Source: Xanthostigma xanthostigma (Eukaryota > Arthropoda > Insecta > Raphidioptera > Raphidiidae). From it: 64,000 bases of DNA. The position numbers and the translations under genes are program-made. The stretch is taken from positions 37,022,401 to 37,086,400 of the forward strand of contig OY754471.1 in assembly GCA_963575645.1 (NCBI GenBank), read 5' to 3'. The notes below the pieces were generated by a model that was not told the DNA's origin, did no database searches, and worked only from the letters and a program-made list of their open reading frames with translations. Positions 6,490 through 62,250 of the stretch are shown here, piece after piece. The number at the start of each line of letters is the position of its first letter. Position 1 is the first letter of the stretch.

Positions 6490-6534
6490 AGTGGCCAACG
6501 TTTCGAAAAATTTATTTTCATCTTCAGGGCCTCA
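6490..6534 (-). ncRNA. Hammerhead-ribozyme-like motif
   Basis: Read on the minus strand: stem I GGCC (6528-6531), core CTGAAGA (6521-6527), stem II GAAAA-loop-TTTTC (6505-6519), GAAA (6501-6504), then CGTT and the second stem I strand GGCC (6493-6496). This is the order of a type I hammerhead with a minimal stem III (ACGU), as known from Penelope-like retroelements. It lies in a region with no recognisable reverse transcriptase, so it would be an orphan copy. Confidence 0.5.
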
Positions 6535-18319: not shown

Positions 18320-18885
18320 TCTTTATATATAAAAATTACGTGTCACGTTGTTTGTCCGCGTTTGTCCTCGATGAACTCCTAAACTACTGAACCGATTTTA
18401 AATTTGATTTGCACACCGTGTGCAATTCGACCCAACTTGAAAGATAGGATAGCTTACATTTCAATTTATAGTCGCAATATTATTTTATTGCAAATTATTT
18501 GTCTATTCCTTGACAGTCATAATTATCTATTAGCTCCAGGATTGAGTGAATATTCAATAGATGGCGCAACGAAATTAACAACCATATAAGATGGCGATAC
18601 CTGTTGACTGGATTGAGTGAATATTCAACAGATGGCGCAACGAACTTAACAACCATATAAGATGGCGATACCTGTTGACTGGATTGAGTGAATATTCAAT
18701 AGATGGCGCAACGAACTTAACAACCATATAAGATGGCGATACCCGTTGACTGGATTGAGTGAATATTCAATAGATGGCGCAACGAACTTAACAACCATAT
18801 ATCTAGATCGAGGATGTAAAAAAACTGAATATCGTTTAAAACAAATGCTTTTTTTTCGAGCACGACGGCGCACGACGGCGCAGCC
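18320..18885 (+). mobile_element. Helitron 5' fragment with minisatellite
   Basis: After an A, the sequence starts TCTTTATATATAAAAATTAC and GTGTCACGTTGTTTGTCCGC, a very common insect Helitron 5' end. CTCCTAAACTACTGAACCGA follows. The 71-bp array at 18541 is part of it. No CTAG terminus is seen before the LTR fragment at about 18888, so the 3' end is missing. Confidence 0.7.
18541..18801. repeat. 71-bp tandem repeat, about 3.7 copies
   Basis: Units start at 18541, 18612, 18683 and 18754 with ATTGAGTGAATATTCAAYAG, GATGGCGCAACGAA and ACAACCATATAAGATGGCG. Copies differ by only a few bases, so the array is young. It is embedded in a Helitron fragment. Confidence 0.95.
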
Positions 18886-21177: not shown

Positions 21178-21350
21178 ATGAAGAATCACACATGAATTCC
21201 ATAATTCAAAATCATTTTTACTAATATCAGAAAGCTCTGATGCCATACTTGACGATTGTTGTAAAACTACCGAGTCGTAGAGGTGATCCGTTTTTTTGAA
21301 ATATGTGGTTTACGATTTCTCGCGGCTTATAGATCAATAAAAGTAGTACT

Positions 21351-21508
21351 TTGTATAATAATTAATATTAAATACAATTTTTACTATTAATATTTTATCC
21401 AAGATGTGCGTTGTTCATTTCTTGACAATTTAACTCTGAAAAGAACAACGCACATCTTGGATTAAATATTAATAGTAAAAATTGTAATTAATAGTAATTA
21501 TTATACAA
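21351..21508. mobile_element. Palindromic MITE, 158 bp
   Basis: Arms of about 65 bp, from TTGTATAATAATTA through CAAGATGTGCGTTGTTC, are inverted around a 25-bp loop. An internal AT-rich indel distinguishes the arms. Confidence 0.75.
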
Positions 21509-21562
21509 AGCTTGAAGATCATGTCTACTAATTTTCAATGCACTTTCTAAATTGACGGCTTT

Positions 21563-21605
21563 ATATCTCTGAAGATGGCAAGAACACTGCCGAAACGTCA
21601 GATAT
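21563..21605 (+). ncRNA. Hammerhead-ribozyme-like motif
   Basis: Stem I ATATCT (21563-21568) pairs with AGATAT (21600-21605). The core CTGAAGA lies at 21569-21575, stem II GGCA/TGCC at 21577-21591, GAAA at 21592-21595, then CGTC with the expected cleavage after C 21599. Stem III would be the minimal self-complementary ACGU, as in dimer-forming type I hammerheads of Penelope-like elements. The most complete example in the window. Confidence 0.6.
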
Positions 21606-21839
21606 TATGTATGTTTTCAAAACCATTAACCGATTAACACCAAAATAGATTTGTAGTCGCAACAGAAACAAGCACTAAAAAATTATATAAAAAAAAATAA
21701 CAGTTACCTATAGAGAAATTCAGATTTATTTTCATTTTTATGAAGACTTATTAAAATGTCCAAGTGTGTAGGCTTGCACCTGGCTGACGCACGTCTTGTA
21801 TGTCTAGATCTCAGATTAATAAATGAAAGCGGCATAGCT

Positions 21840-25621: not shown

Positions 25622-26258
25622 AAAATTTCAGCCAATTGGGCGACAAGACCATTCCAACTTCAAAATGTTGACATTTGTTATAGTATAATGAAGAAAATGA
25701 AATTTCTGATATCGCGTGAGGTGACGCGGGTAACGGCTAGTACTCAATATGATATTTGCTATTCGTTGCAATAATCACCTACATAATATGTTCCACGTCG
25801 TGTAAAAATTATTGACATTTGATATAGTATAATGAAGAAAATGAAATTTCTGATATCGCCTGAGGTGACGCGGGTAAAGGCTAGTACTCAATATGATATT
25901 TGCTATTCGTTGCAATAATCACCTACATAATATGTTCCACGTCATGTAAAAATTAATCAAAGCATGCTTAACAAGTTTATTTCTGACAGATCTACTAAAC
26001 AAAGAACAGCTGATATTTTTTTATTTTCAAAATATTTCCGAAATTATTAAGTTTAGAAAAAAATGTTGTTAACAAAACTTTCTTAAAAAAATAAATAGAA
26101 TAATACGCCGTTATGGAAAGTATACTATTATTATACAAAAAACACAGTTATAGCATATATCTCTTCTGTGCATGCGCCGATTTTCCCCAAAAACAATAGG
26201 GCTCTTTATATTTGCATACCAAACATCTTCCCAAAATTTGGTTTTCAGTCCTCTAATA
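25622..26258 (-). repeat. X-family repeat with an internal 144-bp duplication
   Basis: The inverse of 8698-9190, running from GCCCAATTGGCTGAAAT to the GATTGAAACCAAATTTT-type end. A 144-bp unit (from 25669 and again from 25813) is tandemly duplicated. Each unit includes GTGACGCGGGTAACGGCTAG followed by T, a Helitron-type 3' end in plus orientation. Confidence 0.65.
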
Positions 26259-27184: not shown

Positions 27185-28078
27185 ATTTTATTTTTCTTGT
27201 AATAACATATATCTCTGATGCGCATGCGCCGATTTTTCCCGAAATAAAATACAAAAATTTCTTGTAAAACAGATAGAATAATAAGCCGCTATGAAAAGTA
27301 TACCATTGTTATATAAAAAACGTTATAGCACATAATATCTCTTGCGCATGCGCCGATTTTCCCCAAAAATAAATTACAAAACTTTCTTGTAAAACAGATA
27401 GAATAATCAACCGTTATGAAATGTAAAGCATTATTATATAAGAAACGTCATAGCCCATATCTCTTTTGCGCATGCGCCGATTTTCCCCAAAAAATTTACA
27501 AAACTTTCATGAAAAAATAGATAAAATAATAAGTATTTTTAAAAACTATATTATTATTATATAAAACAACATTATAAAAGATATACTCTTTTACGCATGC
27601 GCCGATGTTCCCAAAAAACAATAGGCCACTTCATATTTGCATATCAAACATCCTCCCAAAATTTGGTTTCAATCCGCTCATCCGTGGTGTCGGAATGGTA
27701 AGAAATGTCAAAAATGACGTTTGCATCTGTCATAGTATTATGTTCTTATAATTAGTTATTCAAATTGTTAACTCAGAAGGCGTTGCATTTCACAAATATT
27801 TGAAATGCCATCCGTTTTTGAACAAATGCAATCGTTTTATTTTAAGACAGAACAAACGTAATCTTTATATTACCATATTAAACCGTGCAACAGAGAGAGA
27901 TAACCGAAAGATGTTTGCCATCGATTATATCAAATTGAATTTATTTCTAAATAAATTTGTATAAAAAACCTGTTTTGGCAAATTCTGTTGTACGAAATTT
28001 ATGTAAAATTTTCTCCCCTTTCGTTTAAGACAGGTTTCGAACCGATCTGATTTAAATTGAGTGAGTTATAAGCAAAAA
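27185..28078 (-). repeat. X-family repeat with a fourfold 124-bp tandem block
   Basis: 27690-28078 is the inverse of 2588-3043. 27185-27690 holds four head-to-tail units of about 124 bp, each with ATATCTCTT, GCGCATGCGCCGATTTT, CAAAACTTTCTTG and ATAGAATAATAAGCCG. Other X copies have one unit. Confidence 0.75.
27219..27603. promoter_or_regulatory. Four regularly spaced NRF-1-type palindromes
   Basis: TGCGCATGCGCC occurs at 27219, 27343 and 27467, with a one-base variant (TACGCATGCGCC) at 27592: spacings 124, 124 and 125 bp. TGCGCATGCGC is the consensus of NRF-1 (insect erect wing). Whether anything binds is unknown; single copies also occur at about 8785 and 26170 in other X repeats. Confidence 0.4.
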
Positions 28079-30580: not shown

Positions 30581-30699
30581 TTGATTTCTACCCGCTGTTA
30601 AAAAATAAAAATCAAGTAAATAAAATTGTCGACCAATTTTTCTCAGACCATACGATATATTGACAAAAAATAATAAAAATACAAATCAATATAACACAA

Positions 30700-30742
30700 G
30701 ATGACGTTTCGATCCGGATTTGGATCTTCTTCAGAAATATCT
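30700..30742 (-). ncRNA. Hammerhead-like core, degenerate stem I
   Basis: On the minus strand CTGAAGA (30728-30734), a 5-bp stem II GATCC/GGATC (30711-30726), GAAA (30707-30710) and CGTC follow in hammerhead order. The flanking AGAT and ATCT could pair only with a bulge. Looks like an eroded copy. Confidence 0.4.
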
Positions 30743-31380
30743 AAAAAATATAAAAATTAATTAGTACCTATTATGTAATTTATTATCTAATAGATTGTAC
30801 GCAAGATTGAAACTTTGAATAAAAATCAATTTAAAAATCACCTGTATTGACCCGATAATGACAAATAATTATCTAAACCAAATTTATAAATAGCTTGTGA
30901 GTGTAGACATTACTCCAAATTAATTTTCAATTTGTATTCTGATACCATTCAACAGAATAAGTAACTGAAATATCTCTCCGAATTCAGTGCATTATCTAAA
31001 ATTCCAAAAAGTTTCTTAATAAAACATTTGATTTCAATATTTCTTCAATAACTTTCGTACTGATTCCTTTTTATCCACATCCTGTATTCACATAAATATT
31101 GTGCATGCTTCCACCTACCAAATCAGCAGAGCAATTTTCAGCGAATGTATTTTCCATCGAGACATATTGATCAATGGACGGGCACGTACGCCGTGTTCAA
31201 AAAGTACATAGATTTAAAGTATTGTCGCATCGACCAGCAAAACTTTTACAGCGCGTTTACAGGTATGTGATGCGCGCTAGTGTGGTAAAATATTATCGTT
31301 TAGAGAATAGCTTCTGTTGCTACATTGTTGAAACACCCATTGTTACATGTCTATATTAGAAAAATTTATTTCTCAAACAA
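30743..31380. other. Unassigned AT-rich DNA
   Basis: No gene or repeat recognised. Confidence 0.4.
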
Positions 31381-54140: not shown

Positions 54141-54184
54141 TTGGTCTACGTTTCGGCAGTATTTCTTGTCTTCTTCAGGACCAA
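54141..54184 (-). ncRNA. Hammerhead-ribozyme-like motif
   Basis: Minus strand: stem I TTGGTC (54179-54184) pairs fully with GACCAA (54141-54146). CTGAAGA lies at 54172-54178, stem II GACA/TGCC (one mismatch), GAAA at 54151-54154, then CGTA with cleavage expected after the A. Same architecture as 21563-21605 but with an unrelated stem I sequence. Confidence 0.55.
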
Positions 54185-56582: not shown

Positions 56583-56650
56583 ACTGTAGTAATGTATACT
56601 TTCTGAATTGAGGAAGTTATTATACATAAAGACATCAGTATTTAGTGGTA

Positions 56651-56822
56651 AAAAAAAAATAGAGAATAGTTACTTCTTACCACAACAAGTTTCGAGAGCT
56701 ATGCTCTCATCTTCAGCAATACACTAGTTTAATGTATTGCTGAAGATGAGAGCATAGCTCTCGAAATGTACATCCACTAATAAACTTGTTGTGGTAAGAA
56801 GTAACTATTCTCTATTTTTTAT
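56651..56822. repeat. Palindrome carrying two hammerhead-like cores
   Basis: AGAGAATAGTTACTTCTTAC, CACAACAAG and the CTGAAGATGAGAGCATAGCT block are present in both orientations around CACTAGTTTAATG. Cores: minus 56690-56716, plus 56740-56770, each CTGAAGA, GAGAG-CATAG-CTCTC, GAAA. A head-to-head duplication of a Penelope-like terminus is a plausible origin. Confidence 0.7.
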
Positions 56823-57099
56823 TAGATTCAAACCACAGTGCTCCTAATATTTTTGTTAGTATTTAGTGGTGTAAAGCAAAATACATGAACATATCAAAAA
56901 ATAATTTTAATTATTAAAAAATTATAGAGTAAATATCAACGGAGGGAGAGGGGAGGTCCCAACTCATACGTACTACCGAATCTCACCAAGAGGAAAGGAA
57001 TACAGATTCTCACCGATTTGCATGATTTCATCTTACACGGCAAATTGGCGAACAAATAATTTATTTAAATAATAAAGCATTTAAAGTCCGTTTCCATCT
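56823..57099. other. Unassigned DNA
   Basis: No feature. Confidence 0.35.
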
Positions 57100-59236: not shown

Positions 59237-60130
59237 CATCCGGATTACCGGGACATACTCGGAGAGATCAACTGGTATACAGATGGATCCAGAACCGAGC
59301 AAGGAACTGGAGCCGGTATATATAGTGTAATGAGGAATCCTAAACTCAGCATTCCACTTGGACGATACTACAGTCTTTCAGGCAGAAGTATATATGCTAT
59401 ATGAAAACAATAGGAGGAAATACAAAAATAAACGGATCAGGCGTCACTCAGGCGCATCTCAAGGGTGACATCAAAGCAGGTTTGGAAATGATTGGGAAGA
59501 ACTTAGAGTTCGGGCAGAACACAACAAAGTAACTTTATTGTGGGCACTCTGGAATCGAAGGCAACGAAGAAGCTGATGAGCTGGCAAGGAAAGGATCGTC
59601 AACTCCATACATTCCCAGAACCTGCCCTGGGAGTGTCCAAAAGCACAGTACGGGGTCAAATAAGCGAATGGACCAAAAATCAGCACAAGACATACTGGAA
59701 TCAAATTTCCGGGCAGCAAAATGGCAAGACTTTTATTAAAAGGCCCTCCCGAAAGATGAATGAAGAACTACTACAACTCACTAGTAACAATCTTTGTCTC
59801 GTGGTAGGCCTCCTGACAGGAAATTGTGCTCTGAAAGGACATCTCCAAAGAATCGGACTGTTTAACGGGAACTTAAAGTGCAGACAGTGCAATAAGGAGA
59901 CGGAAACAGCGTATCATATTCTGTGTGAATGCGAGACTTTGGATCGTAGAAGACAGATAATTAATCAATGGACAATGTTGAATGAATCGAGAAAACTATA
60001 TCAATCACCCAGTCCACAGACTACACAAGCTAGTGCAAGGAACGAGGATACTGGGCCGAGTGGTATAAGGAGCACAATAAGCCCAAGAGGCTACGGTGTT
60101 CCCGGTGACAAGCCGACTCTCGTTAAATTA
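59237..60130 (+). pseudogene. 5'-truncated LINE: RNase H and C-terminal zinc motif
   Basis: Conceptual blocks in order are INWYTDGSRTEQGTGAGIYS (RNase H first motif, with the catalytic D), GHSGIEGNEEADELARKGSS (late RNase H motif with E and D), GVSKSTVRGQISEWTKNQHK, LVVGLLTGNCALKGHLQRIG and CRQCNKETETAYHILCECET (C-x2-C-H-C motif). This is the C-terminus of the second ORF of the R1/I/jockey group LINEs that carry RNase H. The blocks lie in different frames: a stop near 59402, another near 59530 and a shift near 59615-59630 break it. The reverse transcriptase domain is absent. The 257-codon frame from 59540 is thus a shifted start followed by genuine LINE sequence up to about 60000. Confidence 0.88.
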
Positions 60131-60470
60131 AAAAAAAAAACACACACACGCATACAAAGAAATATTTATTTGAAGAGTTCAGACGTTAATGAAAGTTTTG
60201 ATTTTCAAAAATTGTTTAAAAATAATGTGGTGAGTTTGAAACACAAACATTTTGAATTCAATTTTCGGATCCATTACAATAAGTTCTCAATGTACTGGGA
60301 AGTTGATAAATGATTTTTGACGATTTTTAGTGCGGGTGTACCTATATTTTATAGTGCGCAACATGGAACACTCGCTACCTGCATATTTATAGTACGTGAA
60401 ATTCTATGCAGCAATAAACTGAAGAGCGTTGTAAGTGTCACTCCATAGTCGATGGGTGAGCACTGCATAT
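60131..60470. other. Unassigned DNA after the LINE
   Basis: An A-rich tail, CACACACACGC, then no feature. The left hAT target duplication is at 60463-60470. Confidence 0.4.
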
Positions 60471-61445: not shown

Positions 61446-62250
61446 ATTGAACTGCGCCTATCACATTTTCGATATTGATATCCATACCAAGATTATAAAT
61501 GCGAAATTAACGTCTGTCTGTCTGTATGTTACGCTTTCACGGTCAAACCGCTGAGCCGATTATGATGAAATTTAATATGGAAATAGTTTAAACTTTGGGG
61601 AAGGACATAGGCTACTTTTTTTCAAAATTCAACTCCTATGGGGATGAATTGGGGATTGTAATACTGTATGAAGTTATGTTTTCACAACGAGACTGGTGGG
61701 ATGATTGTGATGAAATTCAATATGGAGATAGTTTAAACTCTGGGGAAGGACATAGGCTACTTTTTTTTCAAAATTCAACTCCTATGGGGATGAAGTGGGG
61801 ATTGTAATACTGTATGAAGTTATGTTTTCCCGCGAGACTGTTGGGATGATTGTGATGAAATTCAATATGGAGATTGTTTAAACTCTGGGGAAGGACAAAA
61901 ACATTTTTTTTTTCAAAAATTAACCCTTAATGGGGCTAAATGCCTTCTCATAAATTAAGGTTAAAAGTGGATGTTCTGGTACTTTTAATGTGAAATCTTG
62001 ATGTACCCAAATTGTGCAATGGTAAGCGTTTACAAGTTTATCATCTGGGTCGAAAAATTCTTAGGAGTATTATAATTGGTGACAAATCTAAAAGACACAG
62101 TGTGTTAACGCCACGAATACCAATTATACCAACGGATTTGCCTTTTCAATTTAAAAGATTACAATTTCCATTAAAAACTTGTTTCGGAATAACTGTATGC
62201 AAAGCCCAGGGGCAAACACTTAAGGAGGTTGAGGCGTTACAGTCCCAACC
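61446..62250 (+). mobile_element. Helitron fragment related to 15405-16272
   Basis: Shares CAATTGAACTGCGCCTATCA, the GATATCCATACCAAGATTAT internal start, GTCTGTCTGTCTGTATGTTA, the GGGGAAGGACATAGG repeats (here three of about 130 bp) and the helicase segment. It ends abruptly in coding sequence at about 62235; no CTAG terminus. Confidence 0.75.
61994..62234 (+). pseudogene. Helitron helicase C-terminal fragment (Pif1-like)
   Basis: One open frame reads NLDVPKLCNGKRLQVYHLGR, then RIPIIPTDLPFQFKRLQFPL and FGITVCKAQGQTLKEVE, a clear match to the Helitron helicase end. A TGA stands just before it at 61991-61993. After EVE the reading runs into unrelated sequence, so the final VALSR motif is lost. 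Better preserved than the copy at 15854. Confidence 0.88.

Follow-up and report, generated by a model that had tools for sequence, protein, structure and literature searches.

A minimal type I hammerhead motif of the Penelope-like kind in the genome of Xanthostigma xanthostigma

In the minimal hammerhead ribozymes of Penelope-like elements (PLEs), stem III is typically reduced to a self-complementary ACGU. These hammerheads are reportedly the subject of work by Cervera and De la Peña in 2014 and by Lünse, Weinberg and Breaker in 2017. As far as the available portions of two reports go (PMC7761336, PMC6155905), they are type I hammerheads without a proper helix III, which are dispersed in thousands of copies over animal genomes, lie in some cases within the pseudo-LTRs of PLEs and possibly form dimers. 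Regarding the elements themselves, Arkhipova et al. 2013 (PMC3846280) describe, in the portions available, inverted pLTRs of which one may optionally carry a tail of 31 bp, while the corresponding portions of Frangieh et al. 2024 (PMC11167929) report two start sites of the reverse transcriptase (RT) that bound a tail, with no difference between strands.

The locus considered here lies in a stretch of 64,000 nucleotides of X. xanthostigma (the window), and it was compared with the own genome (623 Mb in 28 contigs). The explanation that best fits it, with a probability of about 92%, is that the motif at 21563-21605 is the minimal type I hammerhead of a PLE, located in the 3' (pseudo-LTR) part of a decayed insertion that lacks the RT.

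The motif and its locus

A sequence-only reading of this DNA had described a hammerhead-like ribozyme built of CTGAAGA, a 4-bp stem II, GAAA, CGTC and the hexamers ATATCT/AGATAT. All these parts are present base by base on the forward strand, as read directly from the letters, although a T at 21576, between CTGAAGA and stem II, had been overlooked, and the motif is not alone in the window. Its parts are the following:

21563..21605, +, the whole minimal type I hammerhead-like motif (sequence; 48.4 bits and E 3.7e-11 with the covariance model of its relatives, this same copy being among the 22 rows of the model)
21563..21568, +, 5' strand of stem I, AUAUCU, pairing with 21600-21605 (sequence; stem I covariation across families)
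21569..21575, +, core CUGAAGA, C3 to A9 in what we take to be the numbering of the hammerhead literature (sequence)
21576, +, extra U without a stem II partner, between core and stem II (sequence)
21577..21580, +, 5' strand of stem II, GGCA (sequence; stem II pairing over 22 rows)
21581..21587, +, loop of stem II, AGAACAC (sequence)
21588..21591, +, 3' strand of stem II, UGCC (sequence; stem II pairing over 22 rows)
21592..21595, +, GAAA (sequence)
21596..21599, +, CGTC, which with the preceding A gives the self-complementary ACGU (reduced stem III), and then C17 (sequence)
21600..21605, +, 3' strand of stem I, AGAUAU, predicted 5' end of the cleaved RNA (sequence)

Self-cleavage is predicted for this motif after H17, that is, after 21599. 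The copy holds the CUGANGA and GAAA core of the minimal PLE type I hammerheads, but its stem II does not directly follow CUGANGA, as one extra nucleotide intervenes. Since a one-nucleotide insertion falls within known hammerhead alignments, according to the accessible part of PMC10085705, this nucleotide is not treated as defining. Folding of 21563-21605 by itself yields a z of -1.04, with 21 of 200 shuffles folding equally well, and in its weak minimum-energy fold G12 is taken up by the extra U. Folding of the single sequence being uninformative, the case for the motif is built on its relatives and not on energy. Judged by its letters and by those relatives, the motif at these positions is real, and is a minimal type I hammerhead of the kind published for PLEs.

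Searches with Rfam models did not recover it. The window holds no Rfam hammerhead, either at gathering score or at E <=10, and the 14 other weak matches found at E <=10 are not hammerheads. In the own genome, RF00163 matches two places at 33.6 bits, below its 34-bit cut-off, among 73 of 81,843 candidates scored, and RF00008 none among 68 of 71,102; the gathering threshold of neither model was thus reached in the window or among the genome candidates scored. Because only these candidates were scored, canonical hammerheads may still occur elsewhere in the genome. The absence of an Rfam hammerhead match was one of two outcomes that the sequence-only reading had named as speaking against itself; the other, genomic copies with random substitutions in the core and no compensation in stem I, did not occur.

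In the window, the core pattern CTGANGAN{4,30}GAAACGTC occurs twice (mean 0.00 in 100 shuffles), and the covariance model built from the relatives finds six copies at E up to 1 (21563+, 6491-, 30697-, 54141-, 56734+ and 56683-), the one at 56734 being identical in letters to the L064 row of the model. The remnant around the motif and the other copies can be listed as follows:

21302..21352, -, left arm of a head-to-head insertion, made up of the family's 3' tail in inverted orientation (by eye against L002 and L010/L014)
21349..21510, no strand, inverted repeat (arms 21349-21421 and 21438-21510, complementary at 95%) that makes up the interior of the head-to-head remnant
21537..21607, +, arm on the right side of the remnant, the stretch common to relatives (the best other genome match spans 25-95 of the query)
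6491..6533, -, motif of family G2 with short tail; no partner arm found (model match)
30697..30740, -, second motif, belonging to family A1, within a short-tailed solo copy truncated at its 5' end (pattern and model match)
54141..54184, -, motif of another family (model match)
56637..56870, no strand, head-to-head pair of a recent PLE family, with short left and long right tail (model match; tail classing)
56683-56722, -, motif of the recent-family pair, shortened after GAAA
56734-56775, +, motif of the recent-family pair
56637-56649 / 56858-56870, 13-bp target duplication of the recent-family pair

The left boundary of the remnant was set by eye, and on the right side the tail is missing beyond 21607. 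L002/L003 on contig C12 form a head-to-head counterpart that is more complete. At the window locus (21302-21607) only the inverted layout is seen, by eye, and no target duplication was found. No trace of RT or EN was detected in the window with the L061, L070 and L051 queries. We read this locus, from its arrangement, as one decayed, RT-less head-to-head PLE insertion. The wording "orphan or non-autonomous unit" chosen by the sequence-only reading is replaced here by that of a decayed 3' fragment, one of many.

Several other features of the window deserve mention. The pair at 56637-56870 is a complete miniature head-to-head insertion and a clean example of the layout. The A1 copy is a solo 5'-truncated PLE copy of ~202 bp (30604-30829, minus strand) with AATAAAAATCAA at both borders, repeats (30604-30615 / 30818-30829) which were spotted by eye with no control. 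At 59507-60313 (+) there is a stop-to-stop open frame of 268 aa with a stretch that is cysteine-rich by eye. Tandem arrays are found at 18539-18801 (71-bp units), 25668-25955 (144), 27205-27617 (125) and 61558-61918 (145).

Relatives, covariation and neighbouring reading frames

The 208-bp neighbourhood of the motif is similar to 24 places of the own genome, the window's own included, whereas the motif itself has thousands of relatives: exact matches to CTGANGANGN{3,32}CGAAACGT amount to 16,319 (8140 + 8179), against 8 (5 + 3) for the reversed control pattern. The core form without the extra nucleotide matches at 71 places (35 + 36; control 4 + 3 = 7), many of which resemble, by eye, point changes or deletions of the same families. 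From a set of collected loci, 89 distinct motif-plus-flank sequences in 18 clusters were obtained. The extra nucleotide after the core is A in 43 of these copies, T in 43 and G in 3, and one of this kind is present in nearly all copies. Position H17 is T in 65, C in 16, A in 7 and G in 1, so that 88 of 89 carry the non-G expected at the cleavage site.

Covariation was assessed in a 22-row alignment of hand-chosen representatives (22 of 31 listed, one of them replaced), in which the recent family is represented by L064 instead of the shortened window copy, and the L064 and L061 rows are offset by a single column close to stem I. A cluster without stem II (the second match in L030) was excluded from this alignment and retained in the 18-cluster counts. 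The CUGANGA/GAAA core is invariant save N7, largely because the search pattern required it. Covariation of stems I and II reaches 0.948 in the 22 rows, compared to 0.226±0.039 in shuffled alignments, none of 500 of which attains that value, and slid structures, the only means by which kinship among families was handled, give at most 0.158. In the two-stem structure, 88.6% of the cells are paired and 75 of 176 are changed on both sides. Two of five measures, namely the number of pairs changed on both sides and that of further pair types, are not distinct from the shuffles (347 and 64 of 500). Pairing amounts to 97.7% in stem II, whose first G-C pair is imposed by the search pattern and hence uninformative, and to only 79.5% in stem I. 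Among the 18 cluster representatives, pairs 2-5 of stem II and 1-3 of stem I are each reached by 0-1 of 500 shuffles. Both stems thus carry compensatory changes genome-wide, which bears out the hammerhead-like character proposed for the motif. As for the minimal stem III, ACGU is found in the window copy and in 20 of the 22 rows, the exceptions being L064, with AUGU, and L061, without the G. A variant with a longer stem II region (CTGAAGAGGGCCATGGCTTGAGCCGAGATGGCCGAAACGT) occurs in L047, and strings resembling it turn up on several contigs.

A Pfam GIY-YIG search of the own genome yielded at least 37 matches (150 of 521 candidates scored), from which 30 loci were cut out. The motif lies near GIY-YIG in 24 of them, including L051, L057, L058, L060, L061 and L062 (L060 and L062 being one place), and the locus search found none in six (L052-L056 and L059). 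In L063-L080, a recent PLE family with frames of up to 804 aa, CTGAAGATGAGAGCATAGCTCTCGAAATGTA or a near copy is present in 18 of 18 loci, with core letters changed in L066 and L070. RVT_1 together with GIY-YIG was found for L061 and L070; L061 holds an unbroken 578-aa frame (RVT_1 3.6e-11, GIY-YIG 1e-5), and its motif, with an altered ACGT, has its core 386 nt past the stop codon. Among L001-L050, GIY-YIG traces upstream of the motif appear only in L025 and L026. The link between the motif and an RT plus GIY-YIG frame is thus seen in relatives and not at the window locus, and it supports the Penelope kind suggested earlier. In the L063-L080 family, ACGU is replaced, within GAAAUGUACAU, by a palindrome of 8 nt (AUGUACAU), which may provide a longer stem III in the dimer.

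Head-to-head insertions, their tails and their joins

Among the first 100 places listed, 21 neighbours lie less than 2 kb apart, 19 of them head-to-head (minus/plus) and 2 direct (plus/plus), and none of these 21 is tail-to-tail (plus/minus) or minus/minus. At core distances of 120-150 nt there are 737 minus/plus pairs versus 51 plus/minus, with 3 each in the controls. Thirty pairs were examined: of the 30 that the list gives for C1 up to 25.9 Mb, 27 were taken, and three later ones were added; the C1 pairs left out are two without the motif, by eye, and C1:21614263. Together with L034 and L040, 20 of 32 pairs show a target duplication score of at least 10, compared to 1 of 300 flank swaps, a control scored in one direction where the pairs took the better of two. 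With both directions scored in the control, a second set gave 11 of 13 pairs against 1 of 132. Credible duplications measure 9 to 17 nt, mostly 11 to 14, as scored with up to one mismatch. Head-to-head pLTRs, a tail and a short target duplication are found together in relatives and at 56637-56870.

The arms end, in five families, at two sites ~33 nt apart, with a few shorter; the limits of the tail classes were set after viewing this distribution, and the five arms used as reference are necessarily long. The 45 head-to-head rows comprise 39 long/short (38 loci, L077 and L078 being one), 4 long/shorter, 1 short/shorter and 1 cut by the locus edge, with no long/long or short/short pair among them. 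Twelve further pairs are all long/short. Hence, all 50 loci in which each arm terminates at one of the two tail sites combine a long and a short arm, six other pairs being unclassable. The 33 solo arms (21 short, 11 long, 1 between) may in many cases have a partner beyond the locus. This exclusive rule of one long and one short tail is an addition here; it is not stated in the portions seen of PMC3846280 or PMC11167929, and may already be in print. It constrains how PLEs prime reverse transcription on both target strands. The L021 pair, with two subfamily labels, was considered as proof of two templates and was dropped, since its left arm is only tail, largely common to both subfamilies.

A mechanism can be proposed in which stems I and II and the CUGAAGA/GAAA core would form a hammerhead in the RNA and would cut after C21599. 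A dimer held together by the self-complementary ACGU, or assistance from the element's protein, would probably be involved. The reverse transcriptase would start at one of the two sites ~33 nt apart, whose distance downstream of the cut is ~50 to 120 nt according to the family, once per nicked target strand, and would read back through the motif. On uncut RNA, it would copy on into the upstream gene, while on cut RNA it would run off at the cut site, leaving a short stub. The arms that span the motif read unbroken through the cut site, which implies that their RNA templates were uncut there, in agreement with the anole element, for which the available text of Frangieh et al. 2024 (PMC11167929) gives unprocessed RNA as the main substrate and a cutting that needed protein. 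Stubs starting at the cut site would be what a cut template leaves. This suggests that the ribozyme competes with, rather than enables, copying of the upstream gene.

In family G2, 45 head-to-head joins were counted by eye within the searched distance, 32 of which coincide with the four letters that directly follow the predicted cut (exactly GGCC in 29, a one-letter variant in 3) and 2 with ACGT, whereas 3 join strings hold no family letters inside. Twelve of the 29 GGCC joins were examined: their flanks are all different, all 12 are long/short, and 10 have a duplication score of at least 10, L117 and L122 scoring 9. In family A1, the 39 join strings, 3 of which look like chance palindromes (control 4), are joined at a variety of positions. 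Maximal arm starts fall most often on the cut boundary, with 22 of 78 arms (6 of them in the three chance-like strings), followed by ACGT (12) and the TCCGGA position (9).

One reading of these starts is that they are in vivo footprints of hammerhead cutting in short head-to-head PLE insertions, the ribozyme acting as a length switch. The other, to which we give even odds, is that arms begin there only because GGCC (in G2) or AT/GAT (in A1) help two cDNA ends to anneal. Such annealing would fit with GGCC being itself a palindrome, with joins at palindromes off the cut site among the 39 A1 strings (ACGT 6, TTCGAA 2 and TCCGGA 3, exact), and with contexts that recur among rows called non-palindromic, such as AATTACAA in 4 rows, which suggests shared microhomology. 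However, once the palindromic joins are removed, the boundary estimates still peak at the cut site in both families, with 36 in A1 versus 17, 18.5, 0, 0 and 7 at 1-5 nt further, and 15 in G2 versus 5.5, 0, 3, 1 and 5.5, for the 76 of 95 A1 rows and 30 of 60 G2 rows kept and under assumed fixed base frequencies. In addition, L127 seems to be a solo stub starting exactly at the cut site, with an 11-bp border match including one mismatch, although its duplication score of 8 is within the 5-9 of other loci.

L127 belongs to the 12 of 30 A1 rows without retained letter that were examined individually by eye. Among the others, L126, L128, L129, L130 and L134 join the opposite arm, and L123, L125 and L131 join other DNA without clear duplication. 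Of the remaining three, L133 does not look element-like, L132 shows an intact neighbour copy instead, and L124 looks like an internal deletion. Because microhomology at the post-cut letters is a real confound, the footprint reading is put forward tentatively, with clearly less than even odds. If it were true, fossil insertions would record how often the RNA was cut. The genome holds at least hundreds of short insertions with readable ends, and the question would be countable by sequence alone in any PLE-rich genome.

The origin of the pairs themselves admits another explanation, namely that, as Arkhipova et al. 2013 (PMC3846280) proposed for an antisense template in the portions available, one cDNA primes itself, instead of each target strand serving as a primer. 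The frequent palindromic joins at the centre and the nearly identical arms of some pairs would be in line with it. Nevertheless, in each of the 50 classed loci the ends of the two arms lie at different sites, which would be expected from one priming event per target strand, and both strands are cut and extended by the purified anole protein (PMC11167929, in the part available), which makes self-priming rather unlikely.

Identity of the motif and comparison with known systems

Several observations count against the minimal PLE hammerhead as the identity of the motif, namely the lack of an Rfam hammerhead match, the absence of stem III in the monomer, the extra nucleotide after CUGANGA, the weak minimum-energy fold, the six GIY-YIG loci in which no motif was found, the missing RT or EN trace, right tail and target duplication at the window locus, and the pairing of only 79.5% in stem I. 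In addition, no reads starting or ending at the cut site are reported for the anole data in the accessible text of Frangieh et al. (PMC11167929). The alternatives fare far worse. The occurrence of copies as inverted pairs with target duplications would also be expected from a hairpin that belongs to the termini of a DNA transposon or MITE (a terminal inverted repeat) and is a feature of the DNA, not an RNA device; this is disfavoured and very improbable, given that the motif lies roughly 50-120 nt inside the ends, the spacing of paired motifs goes from 51 to 1141 nt and varies, by eye, within one family, the two ends differ by the ~33-nt tail, RT plus GIY-YIG frames are found near the motif, and H17 avoids G.

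Equally hard to credit is a conservation of the motif as the protein-coding start of the PLE reading frame, with accidental stems. The reading frame of the anole element does start at stem II (PMC11167929, in the part available), and the window copy has an ATG at 21575, but the differences in length among motifs are not multiples of three, A stands for U in 8 of 18 cluster representatives, which hence have no ATG, and the stems covary with many double changes (the 75/176 cells). A canonical retrozyme hammerhead, a non-autonomous tandem repeat with circular RNA, shares the type I layout and the low GC, and is the least probable of all, as no tandem array (repeats of 150-450 bp with a canonical hammerhead) covers 21563-21605, there is no full stem III, and the arms carry PLE-like tails head-to-head.

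Taken as a minimal PLE hammerhead, the motif can be compared with the systems described so far, to the extent that their published accounts were available. With the minimal PLE hammerheads it shares the type I layout, the reduced helix III, the thousands of copies and the PLE pseudo-LTR setting, and what may set it apart is the single A/U that nearly all copies carry between CUGANGA and stem II. Metazoan non-LTR retrozymes (Cervera and De la Peña 2020, PMC7229834) likewise hold type I hammerheads in animals and are suspected to use the PLE machinery; here, however, there is no tandem unit and no full stem III, and PLE-like tails are found instead.

The Poseidon PLE of Anolis (PAc; Frangieh et al. 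2024, PMC11167929) has in common with the elements described here the RT plus GIY-YIG frame, the hammerhead, and two RT start sites bounding a "tail", which is of 30-40 bp in PAc. Unlike in PAc, where the frame starts at stem II, the ATG at that place in the recent family meets a stop after three codons (by eye), and the tails are exclusive, with one long and one short per pair. The Penelope of Adineta vaga (Arkhipova et al. 2013, PMC3846280) likewise exhibits head-to-head inverted pLTRs, short target duplications and an optional 31-bp tail. Its duplications are of 8-10 bp where given, compared to mostly 11-14 nt as scored here, and in X. xanthostigma each of the 50 classed loci has the tail on one arm and not on the other, and the short pairs number in the hundreds, with 737 at one spacing.
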